Positions 25,989 to 45,151 of a stretch of DNA of 45,561 nt are shown here, in pieces. Source of the stretch: Chloroflexota bacterium (GTDB lineage Bacteria; Chloroflexota; Dehalococcoidia; CAUJGQ01); the NCBI GenBank assembly GCA_963170165.1, contig CAUJGQ010000016.1:1-45561 (forward strand), written 5' to 3'. The translations under genes and the position numbers were made by a program. Every line of letters starts with the position of its first letter. Position 1 is the first letter of the stretch. A model generated the notes under the pieces. That model did not search any database. It saw only the letters and a program-made list of their open reading frames with translations, and had not been told where the DNA came from.

Positions 25989-26438
25989 ATGCCGCGTCAC
26001 CGTCGGGTTGTGGTGCTGGCTGTGGCGGCTGCGCTGTTCTTGGCCGCCTGTGGCGGGAGCAACGCCGCCGGACGGGCCACCACGGCGCCGGCCTCACCGG
26101 CGGCGATGGCCGCCACCGCTGGTGACCCGGTGGATATCGCCACCCTGCCCGCGCACATCGCCGCCCGATACCGCTTCATCGAGCAGCATCAGCCGCTAGC
26201 CCGGCGGATGCCGTGTTACTGCGGCTGTGGCAGCCTTGGGCACCGTGACCTGGCCGATTGCTTCATCGGCCGGCAGGGCGGCTACGAGGGCCACGCGGTG
26301 GATTGCGGTGTCTGCATCGCCCAGGCCCAGGATGTAGAAACCATGCTGGCGCAGGGCATGACCGCCCGCGCCATCCGCGAACGCATTGACACGGTGTACG
26401 CCCCCATGGGGCCGGGCACCAATACGCCGAAACCGTAA
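25989..26438 (+). CDS. PCYCGC-motif lipoprotein
   Basis: A 149-residue lipoprotein. The signal peptide ends in the lipobox LAAC (acylated Cys21). After a low-complexity Ala/Thr linker comes MPCYCGCGSLGHRDLADCF (Cys76, 78, 80) and VDCGVCIAQAQD, then a helical tail with MTARAIRERIDTVYAP. This matches the PCYCGC-motif family (PF13798 type), whose clustered cysteines suggest metal or thiol chemistry at the outer face of the membrane; the true role is unknown. The start follows GGAAACGGAACCGAACG. It is 19 nt upstream of the next lipoprotein and surely co-transcribed with it. Confidence 0.87.
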   Translation: MPRHRRVVVLAVAAALFLAACGGSNAAGRATTAPASPAAMAATAGDPVDIATLPAHIAARYRFIEQHQPLARRMPCYCGCGSLGHRDLADCFIGRQGGYEGHAVDCGVCIAQAQDVETMLAQGMTARAIRERIDTVYAPMGPGTNTPKP

Positions 26439-26457
26439 CCGTACGTGAGGATACGCC

Positions 26458-26940
26458 ATGAAACCAACGTGCATCCTGCCCGTGCTGGCCGCCGTGATGC
26501 TGCTGGCCGCGTGCGGCGGGGGCAAGGAGGCGGCCACGAGCGCTACCCAGCCCGCGACGGCGGCGCGCGCGCAGGCCACCACGGCGGTTGCCGCCGGGCC
26601 GGTGGAAGCGGCCGGGGTGCGGGTGGCTGCGCCGTCCGTGGACCTGGGCCGGGTGCCGCTCAACACGCCGGTTCCGCACGCCTGGGTGCTGAACAACGCC
26701 AGCGCCGAGCCGGTGGCGCTCGGACAGCCGCGGGTCCAGACCCTGGAGGGCTGCTGACCGCCGTTGCCGGTCGTGGGTGCCACGACCATGCAGCCCGGGG
26801 CGGAGACGACGGTGAGCGTGACGATGAGCATGAGCAAGGGCATGGATGGCCCGCACCTGTTCCGGGTGACGGTGCCGGTGCTGAGTCAGAGCGGCGTGCG
26901 GGGCGAGCTGGTGCTGCACGTGCGGGCGAACTTTCAGTAG
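26458..26940 (+). CDS. DUF1573-like lipoprotein, candidate selenoprotein (in-frame TGA at codon 100)
   Basis: The frame starts with a lipoprotein signal (lipobox LAAC, Cys19) and a Thr/Ala linker, then VDLGRVPLNTPVPHAWVLNN, the first strands of a DUF1573/ASH-like beta-sandwich. It meets TGA at 26755-26757 in the context TLEGC-TGA-PP. Related proteins, as I recall them, read GCCPP here, so the TGA replaces the second of two adjacent cysteines. The frame continues with good domain sequence (MQPGAETTVSVTM, GMDGPHLFRVTVPV, ELVLHVRANF) to TAG 26938-26940, 160 residues. A perfect hairpin follows the TGA. A vicinal Cys-Sec pair on a lipoprotein next to a PCYCGC lipoprotein suggests soft-metal or redox chemistry. 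A nonsense mutation is the alternative. Confidence 0.78.
26769..26787 (+). promoter_or_regulatory. SECIS-like hairpin after the lipoprotein TGA
   Basis: GGTCGTGG (26769-26776) and CCACGACC (26780-26787) form a perfect 8-bp stem with a GUG triloop; opening one pair gives loop GGUGC, close to the GGUC-type loop of the E. coli fdhF SECIS. The loop starts 19 nt after the TGA, inside the known bacterial window of about 16-37 nt. Confidence 0.65.
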
Positions 26941-27032
26941 GAGCGCAGCGGGCGTTGTGACCGCCGGCGGAATCATGCCACGATGGGAAACCAACCGTCG
27001 CATCGCGGCAAGAAGCCGCAACGAAGGCAGCC

Positions 27033-39433: not shown

Positions 39434-40738
39434 TCAGGCCATTCCCTGTTCCGCCGCGTATGGCAGCCAGGCGGAGAGCGCGGGTCCGGGGCGGTCCAGG
39501 CGGGTGCCCAGGCCGCGAAGCAGGCCGAGCACGCGCATCACCAGCAGCGCCGGCGGCTCCACGCCCTCAATGTTGAATCCGCGCAGCATCTGTGCCAGCC
39601 GCACATTGGCGCGCTCGATATCGGCGTCGGCGCCGCCGCCGGTGGGGTCGCTCTCCATCAGCCGCCCGGCCAGGCCCATATAGGCCAGCGGCCCCTGCCC
39701 GCGGGCGTGGTAACCCAGCTGCTCGAAGGCGCCGGCCATCGCCATCGGGTCGCGGGTGGCAGCGGCGCGGCACAACGCGGCTACCCCTTCGCGCCCGGTA
39801 GAGGACAGCCGCGCCGTGAGGCCAAAGTCCAAGATCGCGAGCCGGCCATCCGCCAGTACCAGGATGTTGCCGGGGTGGGGGTCGCCGTGGAAGTGGCCAA
39901 GGCGTAGCACCTGCTCGCCCCACACATCGATAACGCGCTCGGCCAGGGCACGGGTGTCGTGGCCCGCCGCCCGCAGCGCTGCCGTCTCCGAAATCTTGAT
40001 GCCGTCGATATACTCCGTCACCAGCACGCGGCGGGAGGTCAGCTCCCAAACGATGGCAGGCGTGCACATGTCACCACGATGTGCCAGCGCCGCACCGATC
40101 GCCTCCGCGCTGCGCGCCTCGTTGATGAAATCCAGCTCCTGCGGCACCAGCGCGCCGACGGCATCGGCGATGGGGGCGAGGTCAATCGAGGATTCCAGCC
40201 GGTGCACCAGCCGCAGGACGGTGCGCAGATTGGCCAGGTCTAGCCGCACCAGCGCGCCGATATCGGGATACTGCACCTTCACCGCCACGCGGCGGCCGTC
40301 GCGCAGCTCGGCGCGATGCACCTGCGCCAGCGATGCGGCGGCCACCGGCGCCCGCTCGAACCGGCGGAACACGCGCTCCGGCTCGTCGCCCAGTTCCTCG
40401 CGCAGCACCCGGCGCATGGCGCGGTAGGGCTGGGGCGGCACGCGGTCATGCAGGGTGGAGAGGGCGGCGATGTAGGCCTCGGGCAGCAGGTCGGCGCGGG
40501 CGCCGAGAAACTGCGCCGCCTTGATGAACAGCCCGCGCAACCGCCGGGCGGTGATGGTGATATCCATCGCGGCACGGGCGTGGGTGCGCTCCCACTCGGC
40601 CTCGTGCCGCTCTGCCGGCAGACCGGCGATGCGTCGCTGGGTGCGCTTGTAGCCGGCGTAGGTGCGGATCGCCACCCGGCCGACGGCAGCGGTGCGGCGG
40701 GCGCGCTGAACGGCAATCCTGGGCGGCGGCGGGCGCAT
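39434..40738 (-). CDS. ABC1/AarF/UbiB-type atypical kinase
   Basis: A 434-residue protein. It has the family's IKAAQFLGARADLLP (the KxGQ-type motif with Ala for Gly), VAAASLAQVHRA (Ala-rich nucleotide loop), VAVKVQYP (ATP Lys), PQELDFINEA, HFHGDPHPGNIL and ILDFGLTARL. Relatives (UbiB, Coq8) support ubiquinone synthesis or lipid homeostasis, but the role here is unknown. There are no clear membrane helices. ATG at 40738 with GGAGGGGGAGAACGACG is preferred to an in-frame ATG nine codons earlier. It is divergent from the ArsR-like gene. Confidence 0.9.
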   Translation of the reverse strand: MRPPPPRIAVQRARRTAAVGRVAIRTYAGYKRTQRRIAGLPAERHEAEWERTHARAAMDITITARRLRGLFIKAAQFLGARADLLPEAYIAALSTLHDRVPPQPYRAMRRVLREELGDEPERVFRRFERAPVAAASLAQVHRAELRDGRRVAVKVQYPDIGALVRLDLANLRTVLRLVHRLESSIDLAPIADAVGALVPQELDFINEARSAEAIGAALAHRGDMCTPAIVWELTSRRVLVTEYIDGIKISETAALRAAGHDTRALAERVIDVWGEQVLRLGHFHGDPHPGNILVLADGRLAILDFGLTARLSSTGREGVAALCRAAATRDPMAMAGAFEQLGYHARGQGPLAYMGLAGRLMESDPTGGGADADIERANVRLAQMLRGFNIEGVEPPALLVMRVLGLLRGLGTRLDRPGPALSAWLPYAAEQGMA

Positions 40739-43670: not shown

Positions 43671-43777
43671 CTTTCATCGAGAGGGTGGAGGGAGACGGCC
43701 CTGTGAAGCCCGGCAACCGGCCCCAAGCGGGTGCGGTGCCAAATCCGCCCCGATCCGTCAGTCGGGGAAGATGAGAG
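43671..43777 (+). promoter_or_regulatory. SAM-I (S-box) riboswitch
   Basis: The sequence follows the S-box consensus: CTTTCATCGAGAGGGTGGAG, GGA(G)ACGGCCCTGTGAAGCCC, GGCAACC, GCGGTGCCAAATCCGC and a last GATGAGAG. P1 pairs 43671-43678 with 43770-43777. GTGGAGGGA, the GAAGCCCGGCAACC core and GGTGCCAAATCC are the conserved SAM-binding elements. It binds S-adenosylmethionine and stops expression of the following genes when methionine/SAM is plentiful. A terminator hairpin follows at 43825-43857. Confidence 0.93.
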
Positions 43778-43857: not shown

Positions 43858-43897
43858 TGTCCGAGCCGCCGGCCCGTTGCCCGGTGTGGAGGTTCCG

Positions 43898-45151
43898 ATG
43901 TCGTTCGCCACTGCCCTGCGTTGCCGCGAGTGTCACCGCGAGTACCCGATTGCCCCCCGCCATGTCTGCGAGTTCTGCTTCGGCCCGGTGGAAGTCACCT
44001 ACGACTATGACGCCATCAAGGGGGTCATCTCCCGCGAGCGCATCGCCGGCGGTCCGGGCAGCCTGTGGCGCTACGCCGATCTCTTGCCCGTGGGCGAGGA
44101 GCACCGGGTCGATCTCGGCGCCGGCTTCACGCCACTGCTCAAGGCGCACAACCTGGGTAAGCGCCTGGGGCTGAACAACCTCTACATCAAGAACGACACG
44201 CTCAATCCTACCTGGTCGTTCAAAGACCGGGTCGTGGCCGTGGCCGCCACCAAGGCGCGGGAGTTCGGCTTCTCCACCCTGGCCTGTGCCAGCACTGGCA
44301 ACCTGGCCAACTCCGTCGCCGCCCACGCCGCCCGGGCCGGCATGGAGGCGTACGTCTTCATCCCCGCCGATCTGGAGGCGAACAAGATCCTGGGCTCGGC
44401 CATCTACGCCCCCACCCTGGTGGCGGTGGACGGCAACTACGACCAGGTCAACCGGCTGTGCGCCGAGCTGGGCGACCGTAACGGCTGGGCCTTCGTCAAC
44501 ATCAACGTCCGCCCCTACTACTCGGAGGGCAGCCGCACGCTGGCGTTCGAGGTGGCGGAGCAGCTCGGCTGGCGGGCGCCGGATCACTGCGTCGTCCCCA
44601 TCGCCTCCGGCTCGCTGTACACCAAGATCTACAAGGGGCTGACCGAGTTGATGAAGGTGGGGCTCATCGAGGAGCACGACGTGCGCATGTCCGGCGCGCA
44701 GGCAGACGGCTGCTCACCGGTGGCCACGGCCTGGGCGCAGGGCTCCAACAACTTCCGGCCGGTGAAGCCCAACACCATCGCCAAGTCGCTCGCCATCGGC
44801 AACCCGGCCGACGGCTATTACTCGCTCGTCCAGCTCAAACAGACGCACGGCGCCTGCGCCTCCGTCAGCGATGAAGAGGTGGTCGCGGGGATGAAGCTGC
44901 TGGCGGAGACGGAAGGCATCTTCGCCGAGACGGCGGGCGGCGTGACCATCGCCTCCGTCAAGCAGATGGCGGAACGCGGGCTGATCGGCCCGGACGAGCT
45001 GACGGTAGCGTTTGTCACCGGCGCCGGACTGAAGACGACCGAGGCGGTGGACGGGCGGGTCACCGAGCCGCTGCACATCGACCCCACCGTCGAGTCGTTC
45101 GAGGAGCGGCTGATCGCCCGGCGCAAGCGTGAGGAATTGCGCCGGGCCTAG
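43898..45151 (+). CDS. thrC: Threonine synthase (PLP-dependent), riboswitch controlled
   Basis: A 417-residue fold-type II PLP enzyme. An N-terminal zinc-ribbon (Cys9, 12, 24, 27) precedes GAGFTPLLKAHNLGKRLG, NPTWSFKDR (PLP Lys109), ACASTGNLANSVAAHAA and the late VTGAGLKTTEAV, as in threonine synthases of this length. The reaction is O-phosphohomoserine to threonine plus phosphate. The start at 43898 follows GTGGAGGTTCCG. Control by a SAM-I riboswitch is unusual for plain threonine synthesis and suggests a role in the methionine branch (see findings). thrC is given by family; substrate is inferred. Confidence 0.88.
   Translation: MSFATALRCRECHREYPIAPRHVCEFCFGPVEVTYDYDAIKGVISRERIAGGPGSLWRYADLLPVGEEHRVDLGAGFTPLLKAHNLGKRLGLNNLYIKNDTLNPTWSFKDRVVAVAATKAREFGFSTLACASTGNLANSVAAHAARAGMEAYVFIPADLEANKILGSAIYAPTLVAVDGNYDQVNRLCAELGDRNGWAFVNINVRPYYSEGSRTLAFEVAEQLGWRAPDHCVVPIASGSLYTKIYKGLTELMKVGLIEEHDVRMSGAQADGCSPVATAWAQGSNNFRPVKPNTIAKSLAIGNPADGYYSLVQLKQTHGACASVSDEEVVAGMKLLAETEGIFAETAGGVTIASVKQMAERGLIGPDELTVAFVTGAGLKTTEAVDGRVTEPLHIDPTVESFEERLIARRKREELRRA

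Follow-up and report, generated by a model that had tools for sequence, protein, structure and literature searches.

The in-frame TGA codon at position 26755 of the window, a 45,561-nucleotide stretch from a Chloroflexota bacterium, very probably encodes selenocysteine (Sec). The preceding codon specifies cysteine, and the product is predicted to be an exported protein resembling DUF1573. The genome, of which the window is contig 16, has a size of 4.4 Mb and is 97% complete. Judged from its sequence, the protein defines a new subfamily, here called GC-U-P, related to the already known DUF1573 selenoproteins, and the alignments place this family in many Chloroflexota genomes. The features of the locus are as follows.

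25989–26438, forward strand: gene for a PCYCGC lipoprotein (PF13798; CYCXC family), Cys form; it ends 19 bp upstream of the selenoprotein gene and the linkage is conserved.
26447–26450, forward strand: Shine–Dalgarno-like GAGG, 7 nt ahead of the ATG, recognized by sequence inspection.
26458–26940, forward strand: predicted selenoprotein gene of the GC-U-P subfamily, DUF1573/Ig-like, 160 residues with Sec100, TAG at 26938–26940.
26503–26514, forward strand: lipobox LAAC in the translation (within MLLAAC), with predicted lipidation of Cys19.
26755–26757, forward strand: UGA very probably read as selenocysteine (Sec100), directly 3' of the Cys99 codon; 66 UGA and 11 Cys in this column in relatives.
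26769–26787, forward strand: putative SECIS stem-loop with an 8 bp stem and a GUG loop at 26777–26779, assigned from its position, covariation and presence in UGA forms.
26830–26856, forward strand: M-x3-M-x3-H segment (Met125, Met129 and His133; conserved in 75/77, 76/77 and 76/77 members), candidate soft-metal ligands together with Cys99–Sec100.

The reading frame opens with the ATG at 26458 and runs through 99 sense codons ending in LEGC to the TGA at 26755–26757, after which 60 further codons lead to the TAG at 26938–26940. This layout, with the TGA directly after a Cys codon, had been described in the first-pass annotation and is exact to the base. The accompanying description of the product as a lipoprotein fits the window, which has a lipobox, and does not extend to the family as a whole: a similar lipobox is found in only 16 of the 77 members, and most relatives have an N-terminal membrane anchor. 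A longer, overlapping ORF in another frame (26445–26960, forward strand) was considered and rejected; its frame is rarely open in relatives. Automatic annotation might choose this ORF over the selenoprotein gene.

Relatives were sought within Chloroflexota genomes, and absence from a wider range of organisms is not claimed. Among 400 genomes of the phylum, 26 strong matches were found beyond the window's own, each with exactly one in-frame TGA. Many further family members, in two classes, were obtained from profile searches and one from a scan of genome contigs, while a tblastn search of plasmids gave no match. The nearest named relative (L054) is a Chloroflexi MAG. When the 77 distinct Chloroflexota members are placed on the family profile, 66 have UGA in the Sec100 column and the other 11 have Cys; every one of the 77 has Cys just before this column and Pro just after it. 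The earlier claim that relatives have Cys at the position of the TGA (GCCPP) is thus correct for these 11, the rest having UGA, and the alignment with homologues that had been suggested as a check yields a column of Cys or UGA only.

The frame that reads through the UGA remains open for 49 codons past it in all 66 UGA forms, and the distance from the UGA to the stop is 59–61 codons in 52 of them. In a 100-codon span around the UGA, the two alternative frames are open in 3/66 and 7/66 UGA forms. Between the gene of the window and its nearest relative, the differences before as well as after the UGA are located mostly at third codon positions. At least six UGA/Cys switches, all forced by well-supported branches, are required on a family tree that was built without the Sec/Cys100 residue. 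In three cases (L130, L137 and L138) a genome has a UGA copy of the family gene next to a Cys copy, and the pair apparently arose by duplication.

Downstream of the UGA, GGUCGUGG-GUG-CCACGACC forms a perfect 8 bp hairpin at 26769–26787, with the stem 11 nt and the loop 19 nt past the UGA, just as initially reported. On its own this hairpin is modest (z = −2.05 versus shuffles) and unremarkable in GC-rich DNA. The window sequence alone therefore provides no proof, which is instead supplied by the relatives. At this fixed offset a mean of 7.24 of the eight stem positions pair in the 66 UGA forms, compared with 2.0 of eight in the 11 Cys forms. In an alignment of 27 sequences, 91.2% of the stem cells are paired and seven of the eight pairs have changed on both sides; the covariation score of 0.567, compared with 0.247 in shuffles, is reached by none of 500 shuffles, and the signal falls away when the stem positions are slid along the alignment. 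G29 in the loop is invariant and U30 is present in 26 of these 27 sequences. In two UGA forms (L092 and L099) the stem is shifted by exactly one codon, with an insertion, and is otherwise intact. Since UGA forms keep the stem and Cys forms have lost it, the hairpin is selected together with the UGA and not with the protein sequence. Covariation and restriction to UGA forms both support its proposed identity as a SECIS element.

An Rfam scan of the window at the gathering threshold gave no match to a SECIS family, the only hit being a SAM riboswitch (RF00162, 73.7 bits) at 43671–43777 on the forward strand, upstream of a PLP-enzyme-like ORF (43877–45151). A weak match to a SECIS model (14.4 bits, E = 0.011) at 39992–40047 on the reverse strand falls inside an ABC1/kinase-like ORF and is probably due to chance.

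The genome to which the window belongs encodes SelA (503 bits), SelB (318 bits) and SelD (355 bits), all above cut-off, and contains a tRNA-Sec with a UCA anticodon, so that all four of the genes that were to be looked for (selA, selB, selC and selD) are present. A tRNA-Sec-like match on C94 was rejected as a tRNA-Ser. The SelD of this genome (L019; genome G000, contig 150) has an in-frame UGA of its own at the usual VSCGGU position, and GC-rich stem-loops are seen 3' of it. Among the genomes with a UGA form, 42/50 have selA above cut-off, versus 2/7 of those with only Cys forms (Fisher p = 0.005). Most of the eight UGA genomes without selA above cut-off are incomplete or fragmented, but one (G270) is about 95% complete; its family gene (L067) is a clear UGA form with a 9 bp hairpin, and no selA match was found there. 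Where Cys replaces Sec, the lineage usually lacks the Sec machinery. As a marker for the presence of the family itself selA is uninformative: it is also found in 18/23 genomes that lack the family, in line with a high base rate in the phylum.

The Cys/UGA-only column, the presence of selA, selB, selC and selD, and a covarying hairpin confined to UGA forms together support the original reading of this gene as a candidate selenoprotein. In the mechanism that we propose, SelB and Sec-tRNA-Sec would decode the UGA at 26755, aided by the SECIS hairpin whose stem starts 11 nt further on, to yield an exported, membrane-anchored lipoprotein of 160 residues. Its Ig/ASH-like domain would carry a vicinal Cys99–Sec100 pair.

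Standard gene callers end the gene at the TGA, which would in that case be a genuine stop, either of a 99-residue lipoprotein or of a decayed gene. This is very improbable given that 66 relatives keep the UGA, the frame, the hairpin and the C-terminal half. Moreover, the UGA precedes the conserved core of the Ig domain, and the Cys replacements retain the full length. More improbable still is a reassigned code in which the UGA specifies another residue, such as Trp, rather than Sec. The frame is open whichever residue is assigned to the UGA, but 15 of the 66 family genes of the UGA form have UGA as their stop codon, the residue alternates with Cys only, and tRNA-Sec, selA, selB and selD are all present.

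A different question is whether this selenoprotein, if decoded as proposed, is new. The window protein scores 16.7 bits against DUF1573 (PF07610), for which the gathering threshold is 26.1 bits, and this profile matches all 26 aligned members at E values of up to 0.1 (best 1.8e-11). The name OS_HP2 was first given for a worm symbiont. A DUF1573 selenoprotein of this name is already listed (PMC2398784, PMC9312934, PMC13188914), with a Sec motif given as UxC (PMC2398784) or UGC (PMC9312934, PMC13188914). The apparently shared domain, the shared use of Sec, the PF07610 matches in 26/26 members and the OS_HP2 profile NF041425, which finds 9/26 members (best E = 1.9e-9), would all be compatible with a divergent member of OS_HP2 that is new only in its taxonomic range. 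We consider this unlikely. When seven members are scanned singly the highest score is 37.7 bits against an OS_HP2 cut-off of 100 bits, and this cut-off is reached by none of 350 genomes of the phylum. Canonical DUF1573 proteins align as SCGC-T with their second Cys on Cys99, and the Sec of OS_HP2 is therefore positioned two residues before Cys99, where 53/66 UGA forms have Glu, whereas here Sec follows directly after Cys99 and the motif is GCUP instead of U-x-C or UGC. A different Sec position is counted as a distinct subfamily (PMC13188914). With a score far below the OS_HP2 cut-off and a Sec that lies three residues further on, GC-U-P is thus classed here as a new subfamily. In the open-access literature that was searched, the 2026 table of 119 selenoprotein families has no GCU/DUF1573 entry, and NCBIfam of June 2026 gave no above-cut-off match among the proteins scanned singly. 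The first-pass annotation had placed a DUF1573-like protein outside the list of selenoproteins; this holds for the GC-U-P Sec position and subfamily and not for the domain, which is already listed as OS_HP2.

In the AlphaFold model, most of residues 51–160 have pLDDT values above 90 and form an all-β sandwich. Foldseek matches this model to ASH/MSP/HYDIN-type Ig domains and sequence profiles likewise match HYDIN/CEP192 ASH and MSP-type domains, in agreement with the PF07610 profile matches. The predicted fold is Ig/ASH-like and not that of thioredoxin. Gly64, Asn80, Gly98, Cys99, Sec/Cys100, Pro101, Met125, Met129, Gly131, His133 and Phe135 are near-invariant across the UGA and Cys forms. His126 is found in 68/77 members and is replaced by Ser in the window. 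The putative copper-ligand residues (Cys, Met and His) are conserved in the sequence alignment of the family, and the Cys–Sec pair together with the two Met residues and the His looks like a soft-metal site.

The gene neighbourhood includes copper and electron-transfer genes. A PCYCGC gene is found within 4.2 kb in 21 of the 27 loci with at least 4.2 kb of flanking sequence on both sides, on the same strand in 20; the PCYCGC protein of the window is all-Cys and scores 52 bits against the NF041379 cut-off of 90. Recurrent neighbours are CuA-type cupredoxin/COX2 domains, COX2–cytochrome c fusions, a NapH/MauN-like 4Fe–4S membrane protein (Fer4_5) and cytochrome c. CopC, an HMA-type copper chaperone and a copper-type ATPase (the last two named from their sequences) are rarer, and TlpA-like thioredoxin genes occur in some neighbourhoods. 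In the window itself the PCYCGC gene is adjacent and the cupredoxin set is not. The Cys-form loci L131, L133 and L135 keep the order PCYCGC, short gene, GCC protein, long gene, and so the module is independent of Sec. Co-occurrence with terminal oxidase (COX1) does not discriminate (52/57 versus 18/23, p = 0.14). At one locus (L140, genome G424) it is the PCYCGC gene that has an in-frame UGA (TGA at base 2903, minus strand; HAYTUDMC, the known UxxC form). The DUF1573 gene downstream of it is of the Cys form, which inverts the arrangement seen in the window. A weak hairpin follows the UGA of this PCYCGC gene, and no selA was found in the genome, which is 71% complete.

Conservation and gene neighbourhood form the basis for our proposals on metal binding and partners. 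Together with the PCYCGC lipoprotein, the selenoprotein would act outside the cytoplasmic membrane in a copper/electron-transfer module that includes CuA-type cupredoxins, the NapH-like ferredoxin membrane protein and cytochrome c. It could act on oxidized Cys residues in the CuA-type partners as a thiol–selenol reductant, or deliver Cu(I) to these partners as a carrier, in the latter case using Cys–Sec with Met125, Met129 and His133. We put this role forward tentatively, as a best guess that is somewhat less likely than not to be right. It is also conceivable, if somewhat doubtful, that the same selenoprotein serves general envelope thiol–disulfide repair and not copper handling: a selenenylsulfide could arise between vicinal Cys and Sec, redox proteins make up most of the known selenoproteins (PMC13188914) and TlpA-like thioredoxins are encoded in some neighbourhoods. 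However, Met125, Met129 and His133 are conserved nearly as well as Cys–Sec, beyond the needs of a pure redox motif, and CuA-type and CopC genes lie nearby. A more specific version of the copper proposal is speculative and on balance unlikely: Cys–Sec with Met125, Met129 and His133 would bind copper as a selenolate site, and the protein would be a selenium-dependent copper chaperone or reductase serving CuA-type cupredoxins, the first of its kind. It would act with PCYCGC, and Sec would move from one of these two partners to the other in different lineages.

Standard gene calling would cut the genes of the GC-U-P family at the UGA. Their predicted products carry a Cys–Sec pair on an Ig-like rather than a thioredoxin fold, and the conserved copper/electron-transfer neighbourhood suggests a need for selenium in envelope electron transfer that is directly testable. 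The natural Cys forms, in which the hairpin is lost and the genome is often without selA, are a ready-made experiment on the retention of Sec.

Sco and PCuAC are exported, membrane-anchored copper chaperones that have a thiol and Met/His ligands and are found near CuA-type proteins. The predicted selenoprotein resembles them in each of these respects and differs in its Ig/ASH fold, as identified by Foldseek, and in that copper binding is a prediction here; no sequence relation to any copper-chaperone family was found. The likeness to the HYDIN/CEP192 ASH and MSP-type Ig domains is one of fold, while these belong to eukaryote proteins with other roles, in which we know of no Cys–Sec site. Thioredoxin-fold selenoproteins have a thioredoxin-like fold with UxxC or CxxU, whereas the model here is all-β and Ig/ASH-like and the motif is CU. 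The CYCXC/PCYCGC family (OS_HP4, NF041379, PF13798), which itself has Sec forms with UxxC (PMC13188914), is encoded by the neighbouring gene and is a separate protein from the GC-U-P selenoprotein. OS_HP2 (NF041425) apparently shares the Ig-like DUF1573 domain and has its Sec in the equivalent loop near a conserved Cys; its motif is U-G-C, while that of the present subfamily is G-C-U-P with the Sec three residues further on, to which the conserved Met, Met and His residues are an addition.
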